A stretch of 64,000 nucleotides of DNA from Persephonella sp. Lineage in GTDB: Bacteria; Aquificota; Aquificia; Aquificales; Hydrogenothermaceae. Made by a program: the position numbers and the translations under genes. The stretch lies in contig NZ_JALVTW010000015.1 of the NCBI RefSeq assembly GCF_027023985.1, forward strand, positions 1 through 64,000. The letters are read 5' to 3'. The notes below the pieces were generated by a model. The model was not told where the DNA came from and did no database searches. It was given only the letters and a program-made list of their open reading frames with translations. Below are positions 4,339 through 51,371 of this stretch, piece by piece; position 1 is the stretch's first letter; each line of letters starts with the position of its first letter.

Positions 4339-5343
4339 TTAATGATACTCATTTGTAATTTCAACATACCTTTTAAACCTTTCATAAGCCTTGCCGAATT
4401 TTAGGGATTCTTTGGCCATTTGTTTTGCAATTTCTAAATCATCGGTCAAGCCATAAGCCATAATTAGAATGGCAGCTGTTAGTATGGCAAAAGGTGTGTT
4501 ATTTTGGTCTTCATTTTTCAGTATATCAAGGCAGATTTTTGCATTTTCTTCAGGAGATATTTTTCTGAGGATAAACTCTTTATTAATACCTTCAGGGTAA
4601 ATTTTAATTTCTTTGCCATTCAAATGTAAGATAGTTTCATGGTTAGGAAATGGTTCTACGCCACCTTCAAGGGCTTTGAATACGGTTATTTTTTCAAATC
4701 TTACATATTTTGCCAGTTCTGTATATTTTTGAATATACGGAGGATGGGATACTCCTGTAATTACTTTGTCTGTTCCAAATGGGTTCAGCATACGCTCCAT
4801 TGTGTTGTGGTATGTTCTCAGTCCAAATTCTTTTCTTTTTGGTAATAAATTGAACAATTTTTGTGCAAACAATCTCTGATGTGCAAATCCAAATCCTATT
4901 TCTTCAAGTGTTCTAATAACAGTATTTAGATTATCAGGAGTTTTGGCTCCCATATATTCAAGTATCTGATGATAGATAATTCCATATTTAGAAGGTATAC
5001 CTTCAGCTCCATGTCCTGCCAGATAAATTCCTGAAGCTACTGCAATAAATATCGCCGCCGGAAGAACATGAACAGACCTATTTTTCCCATCATAATTTAT
5101 AGCTATATCCAGAGGTTTTGTATCAGTTTTTATTCTTGTCATATATTCTCTATGTGCATCTATGAAGCCTTTGAGTTCCTCTATTGATGCATACTTTATT
5201 CTTTCAGCTGCCCAGAAGGCTCCAATCTGCAAGTCTGTAGCTTTTCCATCTTTGATTAATTTCTCAGCATTATAAGCTTCTTCTTGCGTAAGGTCTTTTA
5301 ATCTTTTTTTACCGGTGCCTACTACTTTTAGGTATTCAATCAT
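4339..5343 (-). CDS. TrpD2-like (anthranilate phosphoribosyltransferase family) protein
   Basis: 334 aa, glycosyltransferase family 3 fold: a helical N-terminal domain (EEAYNAEKLIKDGKATDLQIGAF) followed by the phosphoribosyltransferase domain (LPAAIFIAVASGIYLAGHGAEGIPSKYG, then FGFAHQRLFAQKLFNLLPKRKEFGLRTYHNTMERMLNP). The motifs resemble TrpD2/YbiB proteins, which bind nucleic acids, more than true TrpD, because the canonical GTGGD loop is absent. It is divergent from nirA, and orthologs near nitrite reductase genes suggest a conserved neighbourhood, but the role there is unknown. Confidence 0.75.
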   Translation of the reverse strand: MIEYLKVVGTGKKRLKDLTQEEAYNAEKLIKDGKATDLQIGAFWAAERIKYASIEELKGFIDAHREYMTRIKTDTKPLDIAINYDGKNRSVHVLPAAIFIAVASGIYLAGHGAEGIPSKYGIIYHQILEYMGAKTPDNLNTVIRTLEEIGFGFAHQRLFAQKLFNLLPKRKEFGLRTYHNTMERMLNPFGTDKVITGVSHPPYIQKYTELAKYVRFEKITVFKALEGGVEPFPNHETILHLNGKEIKIYPEGINKEFILRKISPEENAKICLDILKNEDQNNTPFAILTAAILIMAYGLTDDLEIAKQMAKESLKFGKAYERFKRYVEITNEYH

Positions 5344-5367: not shown

Positions 5368-7410
5368 GTGAAAATAGTTCCTTTGATTTTACTACAAAAA
5401 ATCTGGAAAAGCTTTATTTTCAAGCCCTATCTGGCAAATCTGATTTTTGGCACACTTCTTGAAAAATATCTGATTAAAAAGATTCCAAAAGGGCTAAAAA
5501 TGGAAAAACTTATAAAAGTTTCTCAGGAAAGAAACAAAAGAATAAATAAGATAGAAAAGTTGAAACAGGAGCATACTCCTCAGGAAGCATGGGAAAAACT
5601 TGAATATTATGCACAGCATGGATTTTCTTCTATCCCTGAGCACGATTTGACCTATTTCTTTAAATGCTTTGGGATTTTTTACAGACCTGCAACTCCAGAA
5701 AGATTTATGCTAAGGGTAAGAATCCCCGGTGGAAAGCTAAATTACCAGCAGGCGAAAAAATTAGGAGAAATAGCAAAACAATACGGAAATGATTATATAG
5801 ACCTCACAACCAGAATGCAGGTTGAACTCCGTTATCTAAGGATTGAGGATATTCCCACAGTTTTAAAAGAGCTGGAAAGCGTTGGAATAACAACTTTCCA
5901 AACAGGAGTAGATAACTTCAGGAATATAGTTCAAGACCCATTAGACGGTGTTGCTTTTGATAATGTTATAGAAACATGGGATATTCTTCTTAATATCCAA
6001 AAGATTTTCCTTAAAAATCCAGAATGGATATGCCAGCTTCCAAGGAAGTTTAATATAGGAATATCAGGTTCTTACTCAAACAGATGTAATATCTACGGGC
6101 ATGACGCCTGTTTTATCCTGGCAGAAAAAGATGGAATATACGGCTTCAATGTGTATCTGGGAGGGAAAGTTGGGGCTGTTGCTAGGCCTGCAGGGGTGTT
6201 TTTGACTGGGGGGGAAGTCCCCCTCTTTTTTGAAGCATTAGCCAAAGTTTTCAAAAAATACGGTTTTAAAGACAGCAGAAACAAAAACAGACTCAAATAT
6301 ATGATTGATGCAGTAGGAATGGAAGAAATTATAGACGCTGTCAAACATGAAGCCGGTAGAGATTTTGAAGAAGCAGGAAGAACCCTTACAGAAATGGAGG
6401 GAGGAGAAAAAACAGGAAAAGTTCAGCTAAAAGACGGGACATTTGCAATGCATATGGTTGTCCCTTCTGGAATCTTTTCAGGAACAGCAATGATTGAAGC
6501 TGCAGAAGCTTCAAAAGAGTTTGGAAATGGAGAAATAAGACTCACTGTTACACAAAATCTTTATATACTTGATGTTCCAAAGGAAAACATTTCTAAACTT
6601 TTATCCCTTCCTATTTACCAAAAATATAAAAATATAAACTCTCCTTACTTTAACGACGTTATAGCCTGTGCAGGAACAGAGCATTGTCCATTTGGAGTTA
6701 TTCCTAATAAACCTGACGCAATAGAGGTAGCAGAATATCTAACCCAAAACTATCCTGTTGATCCTTCAGATGCAAAAGTCAGGATGTATTGGTCTGCCTG
6801 TCAAAAAGGCTGTGGTATCCATGGAAATGGAGATATTGGTTTCGTTGGGGTAAAGTTCAAAAAAGATGGAGAAACTACCGTTGGTGTTGATATGTATTAT
6901 GGGGGAACAATGACCGGGGAGCAGGAGGAGGGGAAACTTCTTATTAAATCTATTCCTTTACCAGAAGTTAAGTATTATGTGGAAGAGCTTATAAAAGAAT
7001 ATCTTCGTCTTAAAAAACCAAAAGAAAGCTTTGAAAGGTTCTACAAAAGAGTTTTATCAAAAATATCAAAAGAAGCCCTTAGATTTCTCATTGTCTTTAA
7101 CAATCTCATGAAAAATCAGAATATCAGACTGGAGATAAACGAGCTTCTCTTAAATAAGTCCAGTGAGGAGGAAGAAATTTTTGCCTTTGGATACCAGCTT
7201 TATAGAAAACTAACAGGAAAATCCCCATATACAAGGCCGGATTTACTCCAGATTTATGACGAGCCTGAACCGGAAAAACCATCAAAACTCAATCCTGAAA
7301 TCCCCAAAGGCCTCAGTGAAATCATTTCAAAAATGATTACAAAAAAACCTGAAAAACGATACAAGGTTTTCACAGAAATTGAAGAAGACTTGAAAAAAAT
7401 CTTTACTTAG
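5368..7410 (+). CDS. nirA: Ferredoxin-type nitrite reductase with a C-terminal kinase-like tail
   Basis: Siroheme/[4Fe-4S] enzyme reducing nitrite to ammonium in the cytoplasm. Two nitrite/sulfite reductase half-domains are visible (FMLRVRIPGGKLNY and the GGKVG segment), and the siroheme-cluster cysteines are C434 and C440 (CAGTEHC) and C478 and C482 (ACQKGCG). After the normal end of the enzyme the protein continues for ~85 residues that match the end of a Ser/Thr kinase (from EEIFAFGYQLYRKLTGKSPY to PEKRYKVFTEIEEDL). The start is uncertain: GTG 5368 gives 680 aa with a hydrophobic extension but no good ribosome site and only 24 bp to the divergent gene; ATG 5500, after AAAAGGG, gives 636 aa. 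narG follows after 69 bp. Confidence 0.9.
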   Translation: MKIVPLILLQKIWKSFIFKPYLANLIFGTLLEKYLIKKIPKGLKMEKLIKVSQERNKRINKIEKLKQEHTPQEAWEKLEYYAQHGFSSIPEHDLTYFFKCFGIFYRPATPERFMLRVRIPGGKLNYQQAKKLGEIAKQYGNDYIDLTTRMQVELRYLRIEDIPTVLKELESVGITTFQTGVDNFRNIVQDPLDGVAFDNVIETWDILLNIQKIFLKNPEWICQLPRKFNIGISGSYSNRCNIYGHDACFILAEKDGIYGFNVYLGGKVGAVARPAGVFLTGGEVPLFFEALAKVFKKYGFKDSRNKNRLKYMIDAVGMEEIIDAVKHEAGRDFEEAGRTLTEMEGGEKTGKVQLKDGTFAMHMVVPSGIFSGTAMIEAAEASKEFGNGEIRLTVTQNLYILDVPKENISKLLSLPIYQKYKNINSPYFNDVIACAGTEHCPFGVIPNKPDAIEVAEYLTQNYPVDPSDAKVRMYWSACQKGCGIHGNGDIGFVGVKFKKDGETTVGVDMYYGGTMTGEQEEGKLLIKSIPLPEVKYYVEELIKEYLRLKKPKESFERFYKRVLSKISKEALRFLIVFNNLMKNQNIRLEINELLLNKSSEEEEIFAFGYQLYRKLTGKSPYTRPDLLQIYDEPEPEKPSKLNPEIPKGLSEIISKMITKKPEKRYKVFTEIEEDLKKIFT

Positions 7411-7479: not shown

Positions 7480-10400
7480 ATGAAACGACGGGTTTCCTAT
7501 TTGCTCAAAAAATTTACATCCTTTGCTCCTAAAGAAACATATTCAAATGGACATTCTGCTCTCACAGAGCAGGACAGGACGTGGGAAGACTTTTATAGAA
7601 AGAGATGGCAATATGACAAAAAAGTTAGAACAACACATGGAGTGAACTGCACAGGTTCCTGTAGTTGGTGGGTTCATGTAAAAAATGGACTTGTGACATG
7701 GGAAACCCAGGCTCTTGATTATCCAACTACCGGCCCAGATTTTCCAGAATATGAACCAAGAGGATGCCAGAGAGGAGCTTCATTTTCGTGGTATGTCTAC
7801 AGTCCTTTAAGAGTTAAATATCCTTATGTAAGAAGCGTTCTATTAGAAGCCTGGAGAAAAGCCAAAGAAAGAAATAATGGAAATCCTGTCAAAGCCTGGG
7901 AAGAAATATTAAACGATCCTAAGAAAACAAAAGAATACAAAACTGCAAGAGGCAGAGGAGGTTTTGTAAGAGCAAATTGGGAAGAAGTAAAGGAATTAAT
8001 TGCTTCTCAACTTATATATACAATCAAGAAATATGGTCCTGACAGAATCGCTGGATTTACTCCAATTCCGGCTATGTCAATGTTAAGTTATGCAGCCGGA
8101 GCCAGATTTATATCTCTCTTAGGTGGAACTATGCTTAGCTTTTATGATTGGTATGCAGACTTACCTCCTGCTTCCCCACAAGTATGGGGAGAACAAACAG
8201 ATGTTCCAGAAAGTGGAGATTGGTATAACTCAACTTACATTATTGTTTGGGGTTCAAACATCCCAATGACAAGGACTCCTGATGCCCACTTCTTTTCAGA
8301 GGTTAGATATAGAGGAGCAAAAGTTGTTTCTGTTAGTCCAGATTATGCCGAATATGTAAAATTTGCAGATGAATGGATGCAACTAAATCCTGGAACAGAT
8401 GCTGCTATAGCCCAAGCAATGACCCATGTAATACTAAAGGAGTTTTATGTAGAAAATCCTGAAGAATACTTTATTAGCTATGCCAAGCAGTTTACAGATT
8501 TACCATTTTTAGTAATACTGAACAAAGAAGAAGATGGATTTATAGTTAATAGATTTTTAAGAGCTTCCGATATTGGTAAAAATGTATCAAATGCAGAATG
8601 GAAACTCATTGTTTTAGATGAAGATACAAATCAGTTAGTAATTCCTAATGGAAGTATAGGCTACAGGTGGGAAGATACAGGAAAATGGAATTTAAAAGTT
8701 GAAGATGAAAACGGAAATAAAATAAACCCTACATTAACAATTCTTGGAAGAGAAGATGAAAAAGGATTTGTTAAACTTCCATATTTTGAAGATGATAAAA
8801 AAGGGATTTTAAAAAGAGAAATTCCTGTTAAGAAGATTGAAATAGATGGAAAGGAATATTATCTAACCACAGTTTTTGATCTATTTCTTGCAAATTATGG
8901 GGTCAAAAGGGAAGGATTAGAAGGATATCCATTCTCTTACAATGAAGATGCTCCATATACACCAAAATGGCAGGAAAAAATAACAGGAACTCCTGCTCAT
9001 CAAGTAGAAAGAATTGCAAGAGAATTTGCCCAAAATGCTGCAGAATCAAAAGGTCGTTCTATGATAATAATGGGTGCCGGTATTAATCACTGGTATAATG
9101 CCGATTTAATATACCGTGCTATTCTTAATCTTGTTATTTTAACTGGTTCTCAAGGTAAAAATGGTGGTGGATGGGCTCACTACGTAGGACAAGAAAAAGT
9201 AAGACCTTTTGAAGGTTGGGCTACCCTTGCATTTGCAAGAGACTGGCAAGCACCACCGAGACTCCAAAATGCAACATCATTCTGGTATTTCACAACAGAG
9301 CAATTCAGATACGAGGATAATAATATAGAAAAATTAGCCTCTCCATTAAAAGAGAAAACAAAATATAAACATCCAGCAGATTATATACTTTTAGCTGTAA
9401 GATTAGGATGGTTACCCTTTTATCCTCAATTCAATAAAAATAGTTTAGAACTTGCAGAAGAAGCTAAAAAAGCAAACAAAAATCCAAAAGAATACATTGT
9501 AGAAAAACTAAAAAATGGAGAACTTGAATTTTCTATACAGGATCCAGAAAATCCAGTAAATTTCCCGAGAAGTCTATTTGTATGGAGATCAAATCTTATC
9601 TCAAGCTCTGCAAAAGGACATGAATATTTCCTAAAGCATATGCTGGGAGTAGAAAATACTGGAGTAATGGCAGAATATTCACCATTAAAACCTGAAGAAA
9701 TAAAACTCAGAGAAGATGCACCGGTAGGAAAGCTTGATTTATTCGTTGTTTTAGATTTTAGGATGACAGGTTCTGCATTGTATGCAGACGTTGTTTTGCC
9801 AACTGCTACATGGTATGAAAAAACAGATCTAAACTCAACAGATATGCATCCATTCATACACCCATTGAACAAAGCAGTAGATCCTCTATGGGAATCAAAA
9901 TCTGACTGGCAAATATATAAAGAAATTGCAAAGACATTTTCTCAACTTGCAGAAAAATATTTAAAAGGGGAGTATGAAGATATAGTAACAGTTCCTTTAA
10001 TGCATGATTCTCCAGCAGAAATCTCGCAGCCTTACGGAAAAGTTTTAGATTGGTCAAAAGGAGAAATTGAACCCATTCCCGGAAAAACAATGCCGAATAT
10101 AGCTGTAGTAAAAAGAGATTATACAAAAATTTATGATAAATACATTGCTCTTGGACCAAATGTCTATGAAAAACCTGTGGGAGCTCATGGTTGGAGCTTT
10201 GATGCGAAAGAGGAATATGAATTTTTAAAAACTATGATAGGAACACATAAAGAAGGCATCAATAAAGGAATGCCAAATATAGAAGAAGATGAAAAAGCCG
10301 TAGAGGCTATTCTTACATTATCAACCTGCACAAATGGAAAACCTGCAAATAAAGCGTGGAAATTCGCAGCTAAAAAAACAGGCTTACCAGAAATTGCAAA

Positions 10401-11154
10401 CATAGCAAAAGATAGAGAAAGTGAACACTTTACACTCAAAGAAATCACCGTTCAGCCAAGAGTATCTATATCTACACCAATATTTACAGGAACTACTCAT
10501 TTTGACAGAAGATTTACAGCATTTTCAAACTCAATAGAATACAAAATGCCATTTAGAACACTATCTGGAAGACAAGAACTATTTATAGACCACGAACTAT
10601 TTACAGAAGTAGGGGAAAATTTACCCGTCTATAAACCACCTTTAGTAACAGATCCTTTTGAAAACTGGGAAACTCCTCCAGACGTAAAAGAAAAAACCAT
10701 AAAAGCACGATGGATTACTCCTCATGGAAAATGGCAAATACACTCTACATACTATGACAATCTGATAATGCTAACTTTATTCAGAGGTGGACAGGTAGTA
10801 TGGATAAGTGATGAAGATGCTAAAGAAGCAGGTATACAGGATAATGATTGGGTAGAAGTTTACAATAGAAATGGTGTAGTAGTTGCAAGAGCTGCAGTAA
10901 GTCACAGAATCCCTAAAGGGACTGTTCTAATGTATCATGTTCAAGATAGGAATATACATGTTCCTTTATCTGAAATAACAAATGAAACAGGTGGTAGCCA
11001 TAATGCTCCAACAAAAATCCATATTAAACCAACTTACGCAGTAGGAGGATACGCACAATTAAGTTACTCCTTTAACTACTATGGTCCTACCGGAACACAA
11101 AGTGATTCTGTTGTTTTAATCAAGAAAAAGAAAAAAGTTGAATGGCCTAACTAA
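7480..11154 (+). CDS. narG: Respiratory nitrate reductase alpha subunit
   Basis: Molybdenum bis-MGD catalytic subunit that reduces nitrate to nitrite on the cytoplasmic side of the membrane, 1224 aa, full length. The N-terminal FS0 cluster ligands are His53, Cys57, Cys61 and Cys96 (HGVNCTGSC ... RGCQRG). The Mo-ligand aspartate is D223 in YDWYADLPPASP. Long stretches match the E. coli enzyme, e.g. WGSNIPMTRTPDAHFF and GGGWAHYVGQEK. There is no twin-arginine signal, as expected for the cytoplasm-facing NarG type. The start follows GCGGAGGA. narH begins 18 bp after the stop behind an almost identical leader (ACGGAGGAGTATAAA). Confidence 0.97.
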   Translation: MKRRVSYLLKKFTSFAPKETYSNGHSALTEQDRTWEDFYRKRWQYDKKVRTTHGVNCTGSCSWWVHVKNGLVTWETQALDYPTTGPDFPEYEPRGCQRGASFSWYVYSPLRVKYPYVRSVLLEAWRKAKERNNGNPVKAWEEILNDPKKTKEYKTARGRGGFVRANWEEVKELIASQLIYTIKKYGPDRIAGFTPIPAMSMLSYAAGARFISLLGGTMLSFYDWYADLPPASPQVWGEQTDVPESGDWYNSTYIIVWGSNIPMTRTPDAHFFSEVRYRGAKVVSVSPDYAEYVKFADEWMQLNPGTDAAIAQAMTHVILKEFYVENPEEYFISYAKQFTDLPFLVILNKEEDGFIVNRFLRASDIGKNVSNAEWKLIVLDEDTNQLVIPNGSIGYRWEDTGKWNLKVEDENGNKINPTLTILGREDEKGFVKLPYFEDDKKGILKREIPVKKIEIDGKEYYLTTVFDLFLANYGVKREGLEGYPFSYNEDAPYTPKWQEKITGTPAHQVERIAREFAQNAAESKGRSMIIMGAGINHWYNADLIYRAILNLVILTGSQGKNGGGWAHYVGQEKVRPFEGWATLAFARDWQAPPRLQNATSFWYFTTEQFRYEDNNIEKLASPLKEKTKYKHPADYILLAVRLGWLPFYPQFNKNSLELAEEAKKANKNPKEYIVEKLKNGELEFSIQDPENPVNFPRSLFVWRSNLISSSAKGHEYFLKHMLGVENTGVMAEYSPLKPEEIKLREDAPVGKLDLFVVLDFRMTGSALYADVVLPTATWYEKTDLNSTDMHPFIHPLNKAVDPLWESKSDWQIYKEIAKTFSQLAEKYLKGEYEDIVTVPLMHDSPAEISQPYGKVLDWSKGEIEPIPGKTMPNIAVVKRDYTKIYDKYIALGPNVYEKPVGAHGWSFDAKEEYEFLKTMIGTHKEGINKGMPNIEEDEKAVEAILTLSTCTNGKPANKAWKFAAKKTGLPEIANIAKDRESEHFTLKEITVQPRVSISTPIFTGTTHFDRRFTAFSNSIEYKMPFRTLSGRQELFIDHELFTEVGENLPVYKPPLVTDPFENWETPPDVKEKTIKARWITPHGKWQIHSTYYDNLIMLTLFRGGQVVWISDEDAKEAGIQDNDWVEVYNRNGVVVARAAVSHRIPKGTVLMYHVQDRNIHVPLSEITNETGGSHNAPTKIHIKPTYAVGGYAQLSYSFNYYGPTGTQSDSVVLIKKKKKVEWPN

Positions 11155-11172
11155 AAAACGGAGGAGTATAAA

Positions 11173-12630
11173 ATGAGAGTAAAAGCACAGATAACAATGG
11201 TTTTAAATTTAGATAAATGTATAGGTTGTCACACATGTAGTGTTACCTGCAAAAATACGTGGACTAAAAGAGAAGGTGTTGAATATGTATGGTTTAACAA
11301 CGTAGAAACAAAGCCAGGTGTTGGTTATCCAGTTCAGTGGGAAAATCAAGAAAAATATAAAGGAGGATGGGAATTAAAACCAAATGGGAAATTACAACTA
11401 AAACAAGGTGGTAGACTATTTGAATTCTTAAATATTTTTCATAATCCAAATCTTCCCACTATAGATGATTATTACGAACCCTGGGCATATGATTATGAAC
11501 ATTTGATGAACGCACCCAAACAGAAACATCAGCCAGTGGCAAGGGCAAAATCTTTACTGACAGGAAAGAAAATAGATATAAAATGGGGACCTAACTGGGA
11601 AGATGATTTAGCAGGGGCTCCGGAACATGCAATAAATGATCCCAATATCCAAAAAATGGCCAAAGAAGTTAAGATGAAATTTGAAGAAACCTTCTTTTTC
11701 TATTTGCCAAGACTTTGTGAGCATTGTTTAAATCCGGCCTGCGTGGCCGCATGTCCCTCAGGGGCTATATATAAGAGAAACGAAGATGGAATTGTTTTAG
11801 TAGATCAAGATAGTTGCAGAGGTTGGAGATATTGTATATCTGCATGCCCTTACAAAAAAGTTTACTTTAATTGGGCTACACAAAAAGCAGAAAAATGCAC
11901 TTTTTGTTTTCCCAGAATAGAAGCAGGATTACCAACCATATGTTCTGAAACATGTGTTGGGAAAATAAGATACATTGGAGTAATTCTTTATGATCCTGAT
12001 AAACTTACAGAACTTTTAAATGAAAAAGATGATAAGAAACTTTACGAGAAACAACTTGAAATATTTTTAGATCCAAATGATCCAAAAGTAATAGAACAGG
12101 CTAAAAAAGAAGGAATTCCTGAAAACTATATTGAATATGCTCAAAAATCTCCAGTTTATAAATTAATGGTAAAATACAAAGTTGCTTTATCTTTACATCC
12201 AGAATTTAGAACATTCCCAATGGTTTGGTATGTCCCTCCTATTAGTCCAATTCTCCAGCTTTTTGAGGATAAAAGCTATGATGAATTATTTTCATCCATA
12301 GATGAAATGAGAATCCCTTTAGAGTATCTAGCAAATCTATTAACAGGTGGAAATGTAAAGGCAATAAAAGGAGCAATAAACAGACTTGTTGCAGTTAGAT
12401 ACTACATGAGAGCAAAAGAACTTGGAAAAGAAATAGACACTAAGAAACTTGAAGAAGTAGGATTAACTCCTGAAGGAGCAGAAGAACTCTATAGGATGCT
12501 CGCTATTGCCAAATTTGAAGAAAGATTCGTAATTCCAACAACCAAAAAAGAATTTGAAAGGGACGTTTATAAAGAACAAGGTTTAACGGGCTTTGATTAC
12601 ACACCAGATTGCGATTTCTGTCTTCCATAG
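11173..12630 (+). CDS. narH: Respiratory nitrate reductase beta subunit
   Basis: Iron-sulfur electron-transfer subunit between NarI and NarG, 485 aa. The first ferredoxin motif is C16-x2-C19-x2-C22-x3-C26 (CIGCHTCSVTC). The second set is around CEHCLNPACVAACP, and the third contains CRGWRYC, where Trp replaces a cysteine as in NarH proteins with one [3Fe-4S] centre. CTFCFPRIEAGLP and ETCVGKIRYIG complete the ligands. The C-terminus (YTPDCDFCLP) is extended compared with ferredoxin-like subunits, as in other NarH. It sits 18 bp after narG and 10 bp before narJ in one operon. Confidence 0.96.
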   Translation: MRVKAQITMVLNLDKCIGCHTCSVTCKNTWTKREGVEYVWFNNVETKPGVGYPVQWENQEKYKGGWELKPNGKLQLKQGGRLFEFLNIFHNPNLPTIDDYYEPWAYDYEHLMNAPKQKHQPVARAKSLLTGKKIDIKWGPNWEDDLAGAPEHAINDPNIQKMAKEVKMKFEETFFFYLPRLCEHCLNPACVAACPSGAIYKRNEDGIVLVDQDSCRGWRYCISACPYKKVYFNWATQKAEKCTFCFPRIEAGLPTICSETCVGKIRYIGVILYDPDKLTELLNEKDDKKLYEKQLEIFLDPNDPKVIEQAKKEGIPENYIEYAQKSPVYKLMVKYKVALSLHPEFRTFPMVWYVPPISPILQLFEDKSYDELFSSIDEMRIPLEYLANLLTGGNVKAIKGAINRLVAVRYYMRAKELGKEIDTKKLEEVGLTPEGAEELYRMLAIAKFEERFVIPTTKKEFERDVYKEQGLTGFDYTPDCDFCLP

Positions 12631-12640
12631 GAGAGATAAA

Positions 12641-13150
12641 ATGGATTTTAAAGAAAAAATTGGAACTATTTCTTTACTACTTAGATATCCTGAAAAAGAT
12701 ATTAAAAAAATTGTTGAAGAAATAGATTTATTAGAACTTGAAGATGAAAACATTGCCAAAGTTATAAACTTCTATAAAACAAATGATTTATTTACAATTC
12801 AGCAAGAATATGTAAAAAGCTTTGATTTAAATGAAAAGGCAAGTTTATATCTTACTTATCATAAATTTAGAGATGATCCTAAAAGAGGAAATTATCTGGC
12901 CAGACTAATCAGTTATTACAGAGAAAAAGGATTTGAATTTATTGATAATGAGCTTCCAGATTTTCTCCCTGTAGTTTTAGAGTTTATTTCTTATATAGAC
13001 GAAAATACAGGTTTAAAAGTATTAAAAGCCTTTTCGAAAGAATTAAAGCAAATATATAAAGGGCTTTTAGATATAGATTCAAAATTTACCCCTTTAATTG
13101 AATTCCTCTTAAAAATCACAGAAAATATGGAGGTTAACCAAAATGATTGA
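12641..13150 (+). CDS. narJ: Nitrate reductase assembly chaperone
   Basis: 169 aa, TorD/NarJ-type cytoplasmic chaperone needed for cofactor insertion into NarG; it is not part of the final enzyme. The start is ATG 12641 after AGGAGAG, which trims the longer open frame that overlaps narH. The N-terminus (ISLLLRYPEKDIKKIVEEI) and the central YVKSFDLNEKASLYLTYH motif are typical of NarJ, where the F/YDL-x-E-x2-SLYL sequence is the family signature. It overlaps narI by 8 nt, indicating translational coupling. It is shorter than E. coli NarJ (236 aa). Confidence 0.9.
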   Translation: MDFKEKIGTISLLLRYPEKDIKKIVEEIDLLELEDENIAKVINFYKTNDLFTIQQEYVKSFDLNEKASLYLTYHKFRDDPKRGNYLARLISYYREKGFEFIDNELPDFLPVVLEFISYIDENTGLKVLKAFSKELKQIYKGLLDIDSKFTPLIEFLLKITENMEVNQND

Positions 13151-13835
13151 TTTAGCCAAATACGGATATGATGCAGTCAATCTATTTTTCTGGGTAATTT
13201 TTCCATATATATCCATCACTATATTTTTCATAGGAAATGCATACAGATTTATTACAGATTCTTTTAGCTGGACTTCAAAATCAAGTGAAATTCTTGAAAA
13301 GAAAACTCTTCGGCCTGCAAGTTTATTATTCCATTATGGAATAATATTTGCCTTTTTCGGACATATCATAGGTATCGTCATCCCAAAATCATGGACTGAA
13401 GAGATGGGCATTTCTGAACACACTTATCATTTAATCGCCCTTTCTGCAGGAAGTATTGCTGGAATAATGGTAGTGATAGGTCTCATTCTATTTATTTACC
13501 GAAGATTAACAAACCCAAGACTTTCAGCAATAACAACTACAATGGATTGGATAACTTTGCTACTTTTACTTGTCATTACATCATTAGGCCTAATAAATAC
13601 TATTTTCGTCCAATACGACTACAGAGACACTGTTGCACCATGGTTTAGAGGACTATGGATATTTACCCCTGACTATACTCTTATGGCTGATGTTCCATTT
13701 TTACTTAAACTCCATATATTTCTTGTATTTGTATTAACCGCAATTTTCCCATTCACTAGATTAGTCCATCTTTTAAGTATTCCCTTCAGCTATATATTTA
13801 GAAAACCTGTTATTTATAGGCAAAGATGTCCGTAA
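13143..13835 (+). CDS. narI: Respiratory nitrate reductase gamma subunit (cytochrome b)
   Basis: Diheme b membrane subunit that oxidises quinol and passes electrons to NarH, 230 aa with five hydrophobic segments. Axial heme histidines are visible in conserved spacing: H64 and H74 (LFHYG ... FFGHIIG, 10 apart) and H191 and H209 (KLHIF ... RLVHLL, 18 apart), the same spacing as in E. coli NarI. The N-terminus is outside-facing by analogy. It starts inside the end of narJ and is followed by narK after 26 bp. All four histidines are present, so a functional cytochrome is expected. Confidence 0.95.
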   Translation: MIDLAKYGYDAVNLFFWVIFPYISITIFFIGNAYRFITDSFSWTSKSSEILEKKTLRPASLLFHYGIIFAFFGHIIGIVIPKSWTEEMGISEHTYHLIALSAGSIAGIMVVIGLILFIYRRLTNPRLSAITTTMDWITLLLLLVITSLGLINTIFVQYDYRDTVAPWFRGLWIFTPDYTLMADVPFLLKLHIFLVFVLTAIFPFTRLVHLLSIPFSYIFRKPVIYRQRCP

Positions 13836-13861: not shown

Positions 13862-15196
13862 ATGGAGAAAAAAATAGAGTATAACGGAAAAGTAATTGAG
13901 ATTACAGGAAGTCCCCAAATAGGACTAATAATGGCCACCTGGGGATTTTTCATCGGGTTTGCAGCTGTTTCCCTTTATGGCCCTGTTGCAAAAAATCTTA
14001 AAGAGATTTTAGGTTTATCCGGTTTTTTAATGGGACTGCTTGTCGCTGCCCCAAATCTGACAGGTTCATTACTTCGGATACCATTTGCAGCATGGGTTGA
14101 TAAAGTAGGAGGCAAAATTCCTCTCGCAACCCTTTTAATACTTGCTGTTATTGGAATGGGAGGATTATCAACCCTTTTATATTTATATTATCCCCATCTC
14201 CAACCATGGATGTATTGGTTAATACTATTATTTGGATTTTTAAGCGGATGTGGAATTGCTACTTTTTCTGTTGGTATTGCCCAAACAGCATACTGGTTTC
14301 CTGAAAGTAAGCAAGGTTCAGCTTTAGGAATATATGCAGGTGTTGGAAATCTTGCTCCCGGATTATTTGGAATGATACTTCCGTTTGCCCTTAAAACAAT
14401 AGGATTGACATGGTCATATATAGCATGGTTTGGATTTTTACTTGTTGGAACTGTGATATACATCTTACTGGCTAAAGATGCCCCATACTTTCAGCTTATA
14501 AAAGCTGGTGTTCCACATAACAAAGCCGTTGAACTGGCTAAACAGCTTGGGCAGGAATTAATCCCAACAGGTAGTTTAATAGATTCTCTTAAAAACTCAG
14601 CAAGACATATACAAACTTGGGCACTGGTTGCTTTGTATTTTGTTTCTTTCGGTGGATTTCTAGCATTAACAGGCTGGTTTATAGTTTTCTGGGTTCAAAG
14701 CTATAATATAGAACTTAGAAAAGCAGGACTTTTAATGGCATTTGGATTTTCACTGCTGGCTTCGGTGATTAGAATTTTTGGAGGATGGCTTTCTGACAAA
14801 ATAGGTGGAGAACTTGTTTCTATAATGTCTTTTACCCTAACCCTTATAGGTGCAATTGTTATTATGATAGCAGGTAATCATAGCTTTGGTTTATCTCTTA
14901 CCGGAGAGATTCTTATGGGATCAGGCATGGGAATTGCAAACGGCGCAGTATTTAAACTGGTTCCCAAATATGTTCCCCATGCTACAGGTGGAGCTGCCGG
15001 ATGGGTGGGTGGACTTGGGGCTTTCGGTGGATTTGTAGTTCCTCCAATACTTGGGATATTTGTCCAAAATTACGGAGTTATTGGTTACTCTAAAGGTTTT
15101 ATTGTATACGTTATTTTGGCATTAATTGCAATTATAATTTCTATTATGTTATGGAAATCCTATGGTAAAAAAATAAACAAACCTATTGAAGATTAA
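13862..15196 (+). CDS. narK: Nitrate/nitrite transporter, MFS (NarK type)
   Basis: 444 aa, 12 predicted membrane segments, major facilitator superfamily, nitrate/nitrite porter branch. Signatures include GFFIGFAAVSLYGPVAKNL, the loop 2-3 motif WVDKVGGKIPL, and glycine-rich nitrate signature helices (TFSVGIAQTAYWFPESKQG and GGWLSDKIGG). The start follows AAAGGAGGGC. Between narI and narB, it can feed nitrate to both the respiratory and assimilatory enzymes and may also export nitrite, but direction and coupling ion cannot be read from the sequence. Confidence 0.94.
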   Translation: MEKKIEYNGKVIEITGSPQIGLIMATWGFFIGFAAVSLYGPVAKNLKEILGLSGFLMGLLVAAPNLTGSLLRIPFAAWVDKVGGKIPLATLLILAVIGMGGLSTLLYLYYPHLQPWMYWLILLFGFLSGCGIATFSVGIAQTAYWFPESKQGSALGIYAGVGNLAPGLFGMILPFALKTIGLTWSYIAWFGFLLVGTVIYILLAKDAPYFQLIKAGVPHNKAVELAKQLGQELIPTGSLIDSLKNSARHIQTWALVALYFVSFGGFLALTGWFIVFWVQSYNIELRKAGLLMAFGFSLLASVIRIFGGWLSDKIGGELVSIMSFTLTLIGAIVIMIAGNHSFGLSLTGEILMGSGMGIANGAVFKLVPKYVPHATGGAAGWVGGLGAFGGFVVPPILGIFVQNYGVIGYSKGFIVYVILALIAIIISIMLWKSYGKKINKPIED

Positions 15197-15206
15197 AGAG
15201 GCACTT

Positions 15207-17444
15207 ATGGAGAAAATAACGGCTCAATGTCCATACTGTGGAGTAGGCTGTGGGCTTGAGATATTTGAGGATAAAAAAGGCAGGATAAAAATAAAAGGAG
15301 ATAAAGAGCACCCTGCCACAAAAGGAGATTTATGTCTTAAACCAATTCCACTTCCAAAAGTAATGGATATTGGCCGTGTCCCTGCACCTTTATACAGGGA
15401 AAATAAAAGGGACAAATTCAGGGAAATAACATGGGAAGAAGCAATAAAAATAATTGCGCAAAAGCTAAAGGAAAATCAGCCTGACGAAAATTATTTTTAC
15501 ATCTCCGGACAGTTAACAACAGAAGATAGTTATGTAATAAACAAATTTGTAAAAGGATTCATAGGCACAAACAATATAGATGCAAATTCAAGGCTTTGTA
15601 TGGCTTCTGCAGTTATGGGATATAAAATGGCCTTTGGCTCAGATGGCCCTCCTGGAAGCTATGAGGATATAGATGATGCGGATGCTTTTGTGTTTGCCGG
15701 TTCAAATGCAGCATGGACTCATCCGGTTCTATTCAAAAGGGTTTTAAACAGAAGAAAAGAATATCCAGAAGCAAAAATTATAGTTATTGACCCTGTTTAT
15801 ACTGCAACAGCAGAAAAAGCTGATATATGGATTGATATTAAGCCAGGAACTGACACAGTTCTGTTTAACAGTATTCTTTATCTTTTGAATAAAAAAGGCT
15901 GGCTTGATTATGAGTTTATTGGCAAGCATACAGAGGGATTTTCACAGGCTATAAAAGAAGCAGAAAAGTATCCACCGGAAATAGCTGCCAAGATATGTGA
16001 AATAAAACCAAGCCTGATTTATAAACTGGCAGAAATATATGCCTTTAGTAAAAAGGTTATTTCTTTCTGGACAATGGGATTTAATCAGTCCTCTAATGGA
16101 ACAATGAAAAATCTGGCATTAATAAATGTTCATCTTGCAACTGGAAGAATAAATGAAAAAGGTTGCCCTTTTTCCCTTACAGGTCAGCCAAACGCAATGG
16201 GCGGCAGGGAAGTCGGTTATCTGGTAAATGGTCTTCCCGGATACAGAGATGTTAGGAATCCAGAAGACAAAGCATTTATGGAAAAATTCTGGGGTTTACC
16301 AGAAGGCAGCATAAAAGATAAGCCAGGAATAACAATAGTGGAAGCTATGGACAGTATGATAAACGGAGATATAAAACTCCTGTGGATTGTCTGCACAAAC
16401 CCCGCTGTTACAATGCCAAATCTGAATAAGTTCTGGAGAGCTTTAAGAAATACATTTGTAATTGTTCAGGATGCATATTTAACTGACTCTGTTGATTATG
16501 CAAATCTGGTTTTACCGGCTTCCCAATGGGGAGAAAAAGAAGGAGTTATGACCAGCTCAGATAGGACAATTACCTACAACAAACCTTTCAGACAACCACC
16601 TCAGCAATGCAAACATGACTGGCAGATATTCTGTGAAGTAGCAAAAGAAATGGGCTGGGAAAAACAGTTTTCCTATGAAAATTCCAGAGAAATATTTGAT
16701 GAATATAAACAAACCACAAAAGGAAGATTATGTGATATTTCTGACTGGAGCTATGAAGACCTGCCAAAACAATGGGGTGGAAAATGGCTTTACAAGGATA
16801 AGAAATTCCCTACACCAACAGGAAGAGCAAAATTTAATCCTGCAGTTTACTCAGGAGCTTCTGATAACACAGAATATCCTTATTCCTTTGTTTTGACAAC
16901 AGGAAGAACCAAAAAACAATGGCACACAATGACCAGAACAGGTAAGGCAATGGAACTGGTAAGAGGAGAAGAAGAGCCATTTGTTATGCTCAATGAAGAA
17001 GATGCACTGGAACTGGGAATATTTGACAACGACTATATAAATATCAAATCAACAAGGGGACAGATTTATATAAAAGCAAAAACAGGAAAAATAAAAAGGG
17101 GAGTTGTATTTGCACCATTTGGTTATGGAAAAATCTATCACTTCCCTACAAATATAACAGTAAGTGATGCAATAGACCCTATATCAAAAGAGCCGGAGCT
17201 AAAATTCTCAGCAGTGTTTATAAAACCAAGAAAGAAAAGAATATACAAGCTATCAGATGAGGTTTATCAAAAGGTAAAAGAAACATACCCGGAAGTAGAA
17301 AGATTTTTAGATGATGTTTTGGAAAATAGTTTTACTTCGCTATCAGAAGCAGATATAAAAAATATAAAACCTGACTTTCTAAAGCAGCTTTCACAGGGAA
17401 TTAAAGAACTAATGGATATTTTTATAAACAGACCTGCCGACTGA
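15207..17444 (+). CDS. narB: Assimilatory nitrate reductase with globin-like C-terminal extension
   Basis: Cytoplasmic molybdenum enzyme (NarB/NasA type) reducing nitrate for nitrogen assimilation with ferredoxin-like donors. N-terminal [4Fe-4S] ligands are C8, C11, C15 and C43 (CPYCGVGC ... GDLCLKP), and the Mo-ligand cysteine is C131 in NSRLCMASAV. ATG 15207 was chosen over the upstream TTG because AAAGAGG lies at proper distance. The normal enzyme ends near KPRKKRIY. Residues ~682-745 (from LSDEVYQKVKETYPEV) look like the first half of a globin fold; the frame stops at TGA 17442-17444 and the globin-like sequence continues beyond it in the same frame. It follows narK after 10 bp. Confidence 0.93.
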   Translation: MEKITAQCPYCGVGCGLEIFEDKKGRIKIKGDKEHPATKGDLCLKPIPLPKVMDIGRVPAPLYRENKRDKFREITWEEAIKIIAQKLKENQPDENYFYISGQLTTEDSYVINKFVKGFIGTNNIDANSRLCMASAVMGYKMAFGSDGPPGSYEDIDDADAFVFAGSNAAWTHPVLFKRVLNRRKEYPEAKIIVIDPVYTATAEKADIWIDIKPGTDTVLFNSILYLLNKKGWLDYEFIGKHTEGFSQAIKEAEKYPPEIAAKICEIKPSLIYKLAEIYAFSKKVISFWTMGFNQSSNGTMKNLALINVHLATGRINEKGCPFSLTGQPNAMGGREVGYLVNGLPGYRDVRNPEDKAFMEKFWGLPEGSIKDKPGITIVEAMDSMINGDIKLLWIVCTNPAVTMPNLNKFWRALRNTFVIVQDAYLTDSVDYANLVLPASQWGEKEGVMTSSDRTITYNKPFRQPPQQCKHDWQIFCEVAKEMGWEKQFSYENSREIFDEYKQTTKGRLCDISDWSYEDLPKQWGGKWLYKDKKFPTPTGRAKFNPAVYSGASDNTEYPYSFVLTTGRTKKQWHTMTRTGKAMELVRGEEEPFVMLNEEDALELGIFDNDYINIKSTRGQIYIKAKTGKIKRGVVFAPFGYGKIYHFPTNITVSDAIDPISKEPELKFSAVFIKPRKKRIYKLSDEVYQKVKETYPEVERFLDDVLENSFTSLSEADIKNIKPDFLKQLSQGIKELMDIFINRPAD

Positions 17445-17690
17445 GACAGGGCAAATCTACTTAATGAAAAAGTAGCAAATGATTATATAAAGCTTAAAAT
17501 TCAACCTAAACATCAAAGCTTGTTAACAAGCTCATTCAGGAAAGAATTTGTAAAAATATTTGATTTACCGGAAGATACAGCTCAAGCTTGGGAGTTTGCA
17601 TTTGATTTTATATCACACCGAATTTTTGAATTAGTTAAAAAATACTATGAAGATAAAGCATTTAAAAATAATCAAAAGGAATTAGTTTAA
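17445..17690 (+). pseudogene. Globin-like C-terminal half, in frame with narB behind a TGA stop
   Basis: The narB frame stays open for 81 codons after its TGA, to TAA at 17688-17690. The product has the second half of a globin: KVANDYIKLKIQPKHQSLL lines up with the F helix/FG region of bacterial hemoglobins, and AWEFAFDFISHRIFELV with the G-H helices ending. At the proximal histidine (F8) position there is tyrosine. No ATG or GTG occurs in the frame (first candidate TTG 17520), and no ribosome site is seen, so separate expression is unlikely. A thermoglobin gene is known in the nitrate cluster of Aquifex aeolicus, which supports the assignment. It is either a broken NarB-globin fusion, a readthrough extension, or a base-call error at the TGA. 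Confidence 0.5.
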
Positions 17691-17727: not shown

Positions 17728-18666
17728 ATGGACGAAATAGATAGATATATCCTTGAGAAAATAAGTAAAAATAGAGTTTCCGGAGAAGAGCTTTCTAAAC
17801 TTTTAGGAATTTCCAGAACTGCCATCTGGAAAAGAATAAAAAAACTTGAAAGTCTCGGATACAAAATATCCCATGATAAGAAAGGATATTTTCTTGAAGA
17901 AAGAACCGAGTTTTTATTGCCTTATGAACTCAATCTGAAAACACAATGGCTAGGGGAAAACTACATCTTTTTCCATACTGTAAACTCAACTAATACCTAT
18001 GCAAAGGAAAATAACCTGCCAGATGGCACGGTTATTCTGGCAGAAAACCAGACAGCAGGCAGAGGCAGAAAAGGAAGAAAATGGATTTCCACCGAAGGAA
18101 AAGGATTATATTTTTCAATAGTTTTGAAAAAGGATATCTCTCCGGCAGATTTGCTTATCTACTCTCTGTTATTCCCTGTTGCTGTCCGAAAAGCCATCGT
18201 CCAGAAAATAGACCTACCTATTAAAATAAAATGGCCTAATGATTTGTATCTAAATGGTAAAAAGCTTGCAGGATTTTTGATTGAAACTGAGATAGAAGGG
18301 AACACCGCCACAAAGCTCATAGCAGGAATAGGTATAAATATCAATCAGACAGAAAAAGATTTAGGAGAAATAAAGGATATAGCCACTTCATTAAAACTGG
18401 AGTATGGAAAAAATATAAACAGAAAAGAACTTTTTATATATATACTCCAGAGCATTGAAGAAGAGATTGATAATCTCGATAAAAACAAGATTATTAAAGA
18501 GGTAGAGAAAAATCTACTATGGAAAGGAGAAAAAATAAAACTGATTGATGAAAATATTGAAGGCACTTTGATTGGTCTTAATGAACTTGGAGGAATTCGT
18601 ATTCTTACCGATAAAGGATTAAAGGATTTTTATTCAGGAGATATTACAGTAAGGAGGGTAGAATGA
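17728..18666 (+). CDS. birA: Biotin operon repressor / biotin-protein ligase
   Basis: 312 aa bifunctional BirA. Residues 1-60 form a winged helix (SGEELSKLLGISRTAIWKRIKKLESLGYKI), and the rest is the ligase that makes biotinyl-AMP and transfers biotin to the carboxyl carrier protein of acetyl-CoA carboxylase. Visible motifs are the biotinyl-AMP loop GRGRKGRKW (about residue 111) and KWPNDLYLNGKKLAGFLIE. A short SH3-like C-terminal domain follows. With the DNA-binding domain present, it may regulate biotin genes, but none are in this window; accD at the right edge is part of the target pathway. It overlaps the next gene by 4 nt (ATGA). Confidence 0.95.
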   Translation: MDEIDRYILEKISKNRVSGEELSKLLGISRTAIWKRIKKLESLGYKISHDKKGYFLEERTEFLLPYELNLKTQWLGENYIFFHTVNSTNTYAKENNLPDGTVILAENQTAGRGRKGRKWISTEGKGLYFSIVLKKDISPADLLIYSLLFPVAVRKAIVQKIDLPIKIKWPNDLYLNGKKLAGFLIETEIEGNTATKLIAGIGININQTEKDLGEIKDIATSLKLEYGKNINRKELFIYILQSIEEEIDNLDKNKIIKEVEKNLLWKGEKIKLIDENIEGTLIGLNELGGIRILTDKGLKDFYSGDITVRRVE

Positions 18667-19243: not shown

Positions 19244-20080
19244 ATGAAAAAGCTAATAACACTGTTTGTTTTTGCTACTGTGATGAGTTCCTGTTTACAA
19301 ATCACCATAGGCGATAATGACGAAAACAATAATGAAAAACCAAATCCAAGAGTTTTAACAGTTAATACAACATGGTATTGGCAGTTAAACGGTAGCCTCA
19401 GAACAGATATACCTGCTGACTTATATGATGTTGACCTGTTTGATACACCTTCCGAGACTATAGCTAAGCTTAAAAAGCAGGGGAAAATAGTCATCTGTTA
19501 TTTCAGTGCAGGCAGTTATGAGGAATGGCGACCTGATGCATACAAATTTCCGCCAGAAGCAATAGGTAATTCTCTTGATGACTGGGCTGGTGAATACTGG
19601 ATAGATATAAGAAATCCCGAAATCTGGAATATTATGAGAGACAGACTTGACCTTGCCGTTGCAAAAGGATGCGATGGAGTTGAGCCGGATAATGTAGATG
19701 GATACACAAATGATACAGGTTTTAATTTAAGCTACAATGACCAGCTGAGATACAACAGATTTCTTGCAAATGAAGCTAAAAGTAGAGGCCTTTTAATTGG
19801 GCTAAAAAATGACCTTGAACAGATACCTGACCTTATTAATTATTTTGATTTTGCTTTAAATGAAGAATGCCATAAATATAATGAGTGTGATTTATTAGAA
19901 CCGTTTATAAGACAGGGTAAGCCTGTTTTCAATGCCGAGTATGATGATATATATATTTATGATGAAAGAGCCTTCAGAAATTTATGTAATGACGCTAAAA
20001 AAAGAAATTTCAGGACAAATGTCTATCCTGTTGAGCTTGATGGTAGTTTTGTAAAAAGCTGTGATTACGGGGAGTATTGA
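19244..20080 (+). CDS. GH114-type endo-alpha-1,4-polygalactosaminidase, lipoprotein
   Basis: 278 aa. The N-terminus is a lipoprotein signal (MKKLITLFVFATVMSSC, lipid-modified Cys17), then a polar linker and a TIM-barrel domain of the GH114 family: TTWYWQLNG, VICYFSAGSYEEWRPD, YWIDIRNPEIW, KGCDGVEPDNVDGY and GLKNDLEQI are typical blocks, with acidic catalytic candidates in CDGVEPDNVD. Family members cleave galactosaminogalactan-like polysaccharides, so a role in own or foreign exopolysaccharide turnover at the envelope is likely. Its stop TGA overlaps the ATG of a PP2C phosphatase gene, an unusual partner. Confidence 0.88.
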   Translation: MKKLITLFVFATVMSSCLQITIGDNDENNNEKPNPRVLTVNTTWYWQLNGSLRTDIPADLYDVDLFDTPSETIAKLKKQGKIVICYFSAGSYEEWRPDAYKFPPEAIGNSLDDWAGEYWIDIRNPEIWNIMRDRLDLAVAKGCDGVEPDNVDGYTNDTGFNLSYNDQLRYNRFLANEAKSRGLLIGLKNDLEQIPDLINYFDFALNEECHKYNECDLLEPFIRQGKPVFNAEYDDIYIYDERAFRNLCNDAKKRNFRTNVYPVELDGSFVKSCDYGEY

Positions 20081-20826
20081 TGATAAAAGTGGCATTCTGT
20101 ATGAACAGGGGATTAAGAGGATATCAGCAGGATTGCATTTATATAGATGGAGAGATTTATCAAGTAGATTTTATGAAATGTCCCCGGGAAAAAATGTTAG
20201 ATAAAGATGAGGGAATATTTGCTGTATGCGATGGTATGGGAGGACTTGCTGAAGGGGATAAGGCAAGCAAATTTGTGTGTGAAAAGTTAAAGAAGATTAA
20301 TATAGATTTTTCCGTTAACGCAGTTGAAGAAGCCCTTTTTCAGATACAAAAAAAGTTTGAAAAAACAGACATAAAATGGAGCGGAACTACCGTTGCCGGA
20401 GTTTATTTAAAAGGAAATAAATCCATAGTATTTAATGCAGGAGACAGCAGGGTTTATAAGTATACTTCTGAAGGGCTTGTTTATCTATCCCATGACCACA
20501 GTTATGTTCAGGAGCTTGTGGATGAGGGAATTATCTCTTATAAAGAGGCTTTTTATCATCCGGAAAGATATGTAGTTACCTTTGGAATTGGTGATGTGTT
20601 TTCTGAAGAGTGGAAAAGTGGTAAAAAACCATATATAGTTGAGGATGAACTAAAAGAAAATGAGCTTTATATAATATGTTCAGATGGTCTGTCAGATTAT
20701 TTAACAGATGAGGAGATATACTATCACCTGTATCCTGAACCTTTTGAAAATTTTCCTATACTAATTGAAATGCTTGAAAAGGTAAAGAGTGATAACTACT
20801 CAATAATTCTTGTAAAATCAGAATAG
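20080..20826 (+). CDS. PP2C-type Ser/Thr protein phosphatase
   Basis: 248 aa from ATG 20080 (a TTG one codon earlier is also possible). PP2C/PPM motifs are in order: GYQQDCIYID, AVCDGMGGLAEGDKAS, FNAGDSRVYKY, LSHDHSYVQELVDEGII and CSDGLSDYLTDEEI, giving the Mn/Mg-binding aspartates. No membrane segment is present. Such enzymes oppose Hanks-type Ser/Thr kinases. No complete kinase lies in the window, but a kinase C-lobe is fused to NirA. It is translationally coupled to the GH114 gene (shared TGATG) and convergent with the dehydrogenase gene, with no gap. Confidence 0.92.
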   Translation: MIKVAFCMNRGLRGYQQDCIYIDGEIYQVDFMKCPREKMLDKDEGIFAVCDGMGGLAEGDKASKFVCEKLKKINIDFSVNAVEEALFQIQKKFEKTDIKWSGTTVAGVYLKGNKSIVFNAGDSRVYKYTSEGLVYLSHDHSYVQELVDEGIISYKEAFYHPERYVVTFGIGDVFSEEWKSGKKPYIVEDELKENELYIICSDGLSDYLTDEEIYYHLYPEPFENFPILIEMLEKVKSDNYSIILVKSE

Positions 20827-50307: not shown

Positions 50308-51371
50308 CAACAACGATTAATTTCTACATAAAGAGCCGGAACTGTTACGATAGAGGAAGGGGCATTAGGAGGAGCAGCTACAGAATTACTTCCGTTATCA
50401 AAATAAAGATAAAATGGAATTTCTGTCATAAATACCTTTGTTTTAGCACCTGAATTACATGCACCCTCCCAAAATGCAGTTCCCATCAAACTTGTTCCAT
50501 TGTTATGATAGACATCCTCCGAACCACCATCAGCAAAAAATATAGTAGATGTTGAAAAATCCCCATAAGCAGCAACTTTATTAGGGTCAGTGCTAAAATC
50601 CGTAAGACCTGTAATATTCACCTGACGGCTGTTATAAGATGTATCAAGGCCTATGTAATAGGGAGGATTATACAAGTTATCGTCATTTACATACCAGTAA
50701 ACACCTTTATCTCCGGAAGAGATATCAATTATACTTGCTACGGTATATTCTTTATGATTAACATTATCTCTAACTTCCCAGATACATATCCACCAATCAT
50801 TATATGTAGTTCCGTTTATCTTCACATCAACAAAAGGAACCATTGTGATAAATGAAGCCAGAATTTTCCCTGCAGAATCACCAGGATTATCAGCTATAGC
50901 TCTACTCAAATTACGGGCAAAAGCATCAACCAGATTTTTATCAGCCCAGTTACAGCTACTTTTTGATGTTTTCCTTACATCCAGATCAAAATTTGAGCTA
51001 TTTTTTGTAAGTATTCCGGTCATCCTATTGGCTACAACATTTGCATTGATATTTACATCTACATGATTATTAAATGTATCATTTCCGCTTAGAGACATAT
51101 CCACAGAATTTCCGGATATACTACCTGTTATATCCTCTTTCCATAAACTACCTCCTATCCAGCCTTTGCCGGATAGGGAACCGCCGGACTGGTTTATCTC
51201 CAAACATACAGGATACTTAACCACACCAGAATAAGTAGAAACCTGATAGCTACCTTCCCATACACCGCTTACACCTGAAGAACCACTACTGCCACCTCCG
51301 CCTCCACCACAGGAAACGAAAAAGGCAACAGCAAAGGAGAAAAATGTTCTGAAAACTACCCTGCCAAACAT
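50307..51371 (-). CDS. Lipoprotein with poly-glycine linker
   Basis: 354 aa from ATG 51371, which lies after a strong AAGGAGGTGG; the GTG three codons earlier overlaps that site. A lipoprotein signal (RTFFSFAVAFFVSC) is followed by a run of glycines and serines (CGGGGGGSSGSSG), then a beta-rich domain with internal repetition (GVWEGSYQVSTYSGVV, GWIGGSLWKEDITGSISGNSVDMSLSG) and a C-terminal domain with aromatic-rich strands. No known family is recognised. A surface-exposed, anchored protein is likely. Confidence 0.75.
   Translation of the reverse strand: MFGRVVFRTFFSFAVAFFVSCGGGGGGSSGSSGVSGVWEGSYQVSTYSGVVKYPVCLEINQSGGSLSGKGWIGGSLWKEDITGSISGNSVDMSLSGNDTFNNHVDVNINANVVANRMTGILTKNSSNFDLDVRKTSKSSCNWADKNLVDAFARNLSRAIADNPGDSAGKILASFITMVPFVDVKINGTTYNDWWICIWEVRDNVNHKEYTVASIIDISSGDKGVYWYVNDDNLYNPPYYIGLDTSYNSRQVNITGLTDFSTDPNKVAAYGDFSTSTIFFADGGSEDVYHNNGTSLMGTAFWEGACNSGAKTKVFMTEIPFYLYFDNGSNSVAAPPNAPSSIVTVPALYVEINRC

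Follow-up and report, generated by a model that had tools for sequence, protein, structure and literature searches.

The window, a 64,000-nt stretch of a contig (NZ_JALVTW010000015.1) from the hot-vent bacterium Persephonella sp., carries genes for a NirA-type nitrite reductase, a respiratory nitrate reductase, a NarK-type transporter and an assimilatory-type NarB (Table 1). The nirA–narK–narB-globin order is found in relatives and marks the locus as an assimilation cluster. Together with the Pfam domains of the product, this order identifies narB as an assimilatory nitrate reductase gene of the NarB/NasA kind. Matches of the protein to the NCBIfam models for NasC, NasA and Fdh-alpha stay below the cut-offs, so its exact substrate is presumptive. 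Because the Pfam enzyme domains span residues 2–666 of the 745-residue NarB, the sequence from ~17232 onward is extra. A preliminary description of this DNA had placed the stop of narB at TGA 17442 with 81 codons of the same frame continuing beyond it, and both the coordinates and the frame hold. It had also counted ~64 extra residues resembling a globin; the resemblance stands, and the length becomes ~70 codons before the stop. No second globin and no second narB was found in the window genome.

Table 1 Features of the narB-globin locus and its cluster in the window
Feature	Position	Strand	Remarks
NirA-type nitrite reductase	5368–7410	+	Same assimilation cluster; kinase-C-lobe-like tail
narGHJI respiratory nitrate reductase operon	7480–13835	+	Between nirA and narK; missing at that place in G006
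NarK-type nitrate/nitrite transporter	13862–15196	+	Precedes narB-globin in the relatives examined
NarB open reading frame	15207–17444	+	ATG start at 15207, TGA stop 17442–17444
Catalytic part of assimilatory-type NarB	15207–17231	+	Pfam Fe4S4, molybdopterin and molydop-binding domains; omega 0.037 against G006
Pre-stop half of globin tail (helices A–E region)	17232–17441	+	phmmer to 7dih and 2wy4, profile, and AlphaFold2/Foldseek, all on the joined tail
In-frame TGA at Trp codon position	17442–17444	+	Trp in 13 other Tyr-type relatives; TGG in G006
Post-stop half of globin tail (helices F–H)	17445–17687	+	81 open codons, no usable restart
Proximal (F8) Tyr codon	17484–17486	+	Tyr in 14/14 Tyr-type tails
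TAA closing the full NarB-globin frame	17688–17690	+	Frame reading
BirA biotin ligase	17728–18666	+	Downstream of narB, likewise in several relatives

The NarB tail as a degenerate globin

When the tail is read through the TGA (17232–17687), a single-sequence phmmer search of the PDB matches it to Aquifex thermoglobin 7dih (E = 2.6e-6, residues 4–138), and single-sequence phmmer likewise finds the Campylobacter single-domain hemoglobin 2wy4 (1.7e-4); both alignments cross the stop uninterrupted. A profile built from the 14 tails of the window's kind (Tyr-type, described below) matches 7dih at E = 2.6e-10, and hhalign relates these tails to the His-type tails of other family members with a probability of 98.3. 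Modeled with AlphaFold2 from the window and named loci alone, the window tail has a pLDDT of 89.3. Foldseek places this predicted fold closest in the PDB to 7dih (TM 0.70/0.76), and all matches in the top 50 listed are globins. The single-domain Aquifex aeolicus thermoglobin is thus nearest to the tail in both sequence and fold. Searches of the window tail with Pfam and NCBIfam gave chance matches only, and the AlphaFold model of full-length NarB-globin (pLDDT 56) is too low in confidence to place the tail on NarB.

By homology and predicted fold, the tail is a degenerate globin. The globin likeness first noted on both sides of the stop is therefore upheld, including by the profile search that had been proposed for the joined segment. 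That the tail is an unrelated helical bundle merely resembling a globin, as the lack of a Pfam globin match in all 14 Tyr-type tails might suggest, is extremely improbable given the thermoglobin matches by single sequence and by profile, the homology to undoubted globins at the same position of the same protein, and the run of globins among the top structural matches.

Three kinds of tail in Hydrogenothermaceae

A local fusion had been called plausible; the fusion is instead family-wide. A search of 101 genomes located the same tail in further genomes of the genus and family, and a scan of genome contigs found carriers that include Persephonella sp., Hydrogenothermaceae, Hydrogenothermus and Sulfurihydrogenibium. 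A phylum-wide profile search combined with an order-wide NarB search yielded 31 NarB-bearing Hydrogenothermaceae genomes, and 29 of them hold a NarB-globin frame: 14 of the Tyr-type (the window included), 7 of the His-type and 8 of a third type. Complete NarB genes of the family are open frames of ~820–838 aa, which supplies the uninterrupted relatives that the preliminary description had suggested looking for and leaves the stop private to the window genome. The exceptions are the tail-less NarBs of G019 (703 aa) and G020 (693 aa). NarBs belonging to the order's other families did not match the tail.

The His-type tails match Pfam Globin (PF00042) in all six distinct sequences from the seven genomes (best 1.8e-15), and their profile matches 7dih at 8e-27. 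By sequence they are true globins that carry the CD1 Phe and the F8 His. Third-type tails, found in Hydrogenothermus, Sulfurihydrogenibium and others, have Phe or Tyr at F8, mostly Phe, and match 7dih at 3e-7.

Loss of the heme site

A Tyr occupies the proximal position F8 in 14/14 Tyr-type tails, the window included, and His occupies it in 6/6 aligned His-type (heme-type) tails and 6/6 thermoglobins. The CD1 Phe is missing from all 14 Tyr-type tails and kept in all six His-type tails and all six thermoglobins; the CD region is gapped in the alignment, so CD1 is less certain than F8. The window tail therefore lacks both the F8 His and, subject to the same gapped alignment, the CD1 Phe that typify the globin superfamily. 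In addition, the G5 Tyr is replaced by Gln in 13/14 Tyr-type tails, and B10 varies among them (F/Y/L). The 7dih thermoglobin stands alone and has the F8 His, the CD1 Phe and a B10 Tyr; the window domain, which is joined to NarB, has neither the F8 His nor the CD1 Phe. These losses confirm the Tyr first seen at the proximal site and, less firmly, the altered CD1 region, and they support the doubt already raised about heme binding.

From these residues we infer that the Tyr-type tail lacks heme. An alternative is that the domain still binds heme, through the F8 Tyr or another ligand, and serves to bind NO or O2. Other proteins show that Tyr can act as a ligand of heme iron, and its invariance at F8 in 14/14 tails would suit such a role. 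Against this stand the loss of the CD1 Phe in every Tyr-type tail, the variable B10 and the near-uniform change of G5, as well as the third kind, in which F8 is mostly Phe, a residue that cannot ligate iron. We regard retained heme as unlikely.

Origin, constraint and recombination

In the NarB tree the Tyr-type sequences form one supported clade and the His-type sequences are paraphyletic. The tail tree, rooted with thermoglobins, resolves the Tyr-type and the third type as one clade each, on long branches. Since thermoglobins carry the F8 His, this residue is ancestral. A single clade joining the Tyr-type and third-type tails is accepted by the AU test (p = 0.34), which is compatible with one or two losses of the His. 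Loss of the heme site is old, because Tyr at F8 is common to 14/14 Tyr-type tails and the third type has Phe or Tyr there. The altered, heme-less domain, judged by its codons, is still under purifying selection: omega is 0.06–0.13 for heme-less tails in pairs with measurable Ks. The heme-site loss is thus an old, conserved state in 14 genomes and does not point to decay of the window copy, one of the explanations first put forward.

The link to Aquifex thermoglobin drawn in the preliminary description proved sound. Five Aquificaceae genomes (G072, G062, G047, G066 and G049) have a stand-alone globin gene ~3–7 kb from narB, which suggests the source of the fused domain. The globin would have joined the NarB C terminus early in Hydrogenothermaceae, probably from a thermoglobin gene beside narB. 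One set of genomes would then have kept the residues for holding heme; in the window lineage the site would have been dismantled, with the F8 His changed to Tyr and the CD1 Phe lost, and the fold retained.

The narB genes of G004 and G009 (L040/L041) are ~95% identical to about base 1500 and ~60% identical in the tail, and narB of G005 (L049) begins with ~500 window-like bases and continues as a His-type gene. Such mosaics, with their sharp 3′ drop in identity, indicate that recombination exchanges the globin end between species.

A recent or misread in-frame stop

The stop falls at tail residue Trp71, which all 13 of the other Tyr-type sequences share (the window row being aligned with its TGA read as W); in G006, the nearest relative, the codon is TGG. 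Over the first 72 codons past the stop, 15 of the changes that separate the window from G006 are synonymous and 1 is nonsynonymous, where ~40 nonsynonymous changes would be expected, by a hand estimate, had the window branch always been unconstrained. The stop is therefore very young, an error, or ineffective. A pseudogene produced by old decay is rejected, as constraint after the stop is not relaxed.

We consider it likely that the fusion is old in the family, that its heme site was dismantled with the fold kept, and that the stop arose very recently by nonsense mutation. A single G-to-A change in the window genome would have turned the conserved Trp codon into TGA. The product would then be a NarB of ~745 residues with whole catalytic domains and a half-made globin tail. 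Among the causes of the stop, we rank a real and recent nonsense change first, a base error second and readthrough third. Of the three options originally raised for the stop, decay, readthrough or error, old decay thus falls to the persisting constraint, and the other two stay below the nonsense mutation.

A base-call or assembly error, with TGG as the true codon and an intact NarB-globin as the product, is a serious possibility, though not the favored one. One substitution would suffice, Trp stands at the site in each of the other 13 Tyr-type genomes, and the remaining frame is conserved as though translated. The site is, on the other hand, no homopolymer indel, and a comparison with G006 of ~47 window genes (15,700 codons) found no other intragenic stop, which implies a low rate of local error. 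The other flags in that comparison were an upstream extension of 4339–5343 and an antisense frame at 50704–51189.

Very unlikely, in our judgment, is that UGA is sometimes decoded as Trp, so that NarB is made in a short form and, with the globin, in a long one. The frame past the stop is intact and constrained, and a near-cognate tRNA-Trp would insert Trp at UGA, the very residue expected here. Nevertheless, no relative has UGA at the site (13/13 have a Trp codon, unlike the pattern of a readthrough or selenocysteine gene), TGA is an ordinary stop in the window genome, and no structured RNA was detected 3′ of the stop (z = 0.02). A changed genetic code is rejected in view of nine compared conserved genes that end in TGA and 154 Trp codons that are TGG. 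Selenocysteine is ruled out in practice, since no tRNA-Sec scored over the family cut-off in the window genome and weak matches also occurred in all 14 control genomes. An internal restart was also rejected, the sole in-frame candidate being a TTG at 17520, ~55 codons before the end, which is not usable.

Functional implications and related systems

The truncated NarB of the window is probably active, because the tail begins only after its catalytic domains and because the NarBs of G019, G020 and Aquificaceae have no tail. Should the stop be real, it may provide a natural tail-less NarB for comparison.

Globin fusions to nitrate reductase in algae and to NO synthase are already known, as are non-heme globins. 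The hybrid nitrate reductase NR2-2/2HbN of raphidophyte algae (Stewart and Coyne 2011, cited in PMC3820574), reported to metabolise NO, resembles the window NarB in joining a globin to an assimilatory nitrate reductase; it is eukaryotic and combines a truncated 2/2 hemoglobin with a flavin reductase domain (PMC3820574). The window protein is instead a molybdopterin NarB with a C-terminal domain derived from a 3/3-type globin and no flavin domain, and the two architectures are therefore convergent. A globin–NO synthase fusion likewise places a globin on an enzyme of nitrogen oxide metabolism; its globin is N-terminal and keeps the F8 His and CD1 Phe, unlike the window tail (PMC6104048). The stressosome protein RsbR has a non-heme globin domain and, like the Tyr-type NarB, holds a heme-less globin fold inside a larger protein; in RsbR the globin is the N-terminal turret of a STAS stress sensor, whereas in the window it is the tail of an enzyme (PMC6614362). 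In the window tail a predicted globin fold goes with loss of the heme ligand; the host protein is an enzyme, and likeness to the RsbR-type signaling domains is tentative.

By analogy with the raphidophyte enzyme, domains of the His-type could serve to bind NO or O2 close to where nitrate is reduced. Those of the Tyr-type and the third type presumably cannot easily bind either gas; in principle they come closest to the RsbR non-heme globin and would be protein-binding or regulatory folds. For the window lineage, the heme-free fold would most likely serve as a docking or regulatory domain of nitrate reductase.

Our search of open-licence literature turned up neither a bacterial NarB-globin fusion nor heme-less versions of one, and nothing relevant on narB or globin fusions in Persephonella. 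Heme-type and heme-less versions of one fusion coexist in Hydrogenothermaceae, so these side-by-side natural versions make the roles of the heme, and of the fold without it, testable by domain comparison.

The NirA tail and neighboring genes

The nitrite reductase of the cluster ends in a tail of ~80 residues (7060–7410) whose match to PknB-like Ser/Thr kinases is confined to the end of the C-lobe (phmmer to 3f61, E = 2e-6, chain residues 200–279; Pkinase, 0.0014). It lacks the N-lobe and the catalytic loop and is conserved in the 14 relatives whose C terminus was read, Sulfurihydrogenibium among them. Both nitrate assimilation enzymes of Hydrogenothermaceae would then have a dismantled sensor-type domain as their C terminus, a heme-less globin in NarB and a catalytically incomplete kinase C-lobe in NirA. 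The two may be docking parts of one regulated nitrate-to-ammonium complex whose globin end recombines between species, an idea that we advance as speculative and hold to be rather unlikely.

The whole narGHJI operon is missing from this site in G006, although the genes flanking it are 85–90% identical to those of the window, which points to respiratory nitrate reduction having been gained or lost between closely related species. A few genes downstream of nirA, at 20077–20826, lies a PP2C-type protein phosphatase gene that is kept in several relatives. A TnpB-family RNA-guided endonuclease gene at 332–1738 (NF040570, 3.3e-41) adjoins the nitrate cluster, and G006 has a similar sequence elsewhere.
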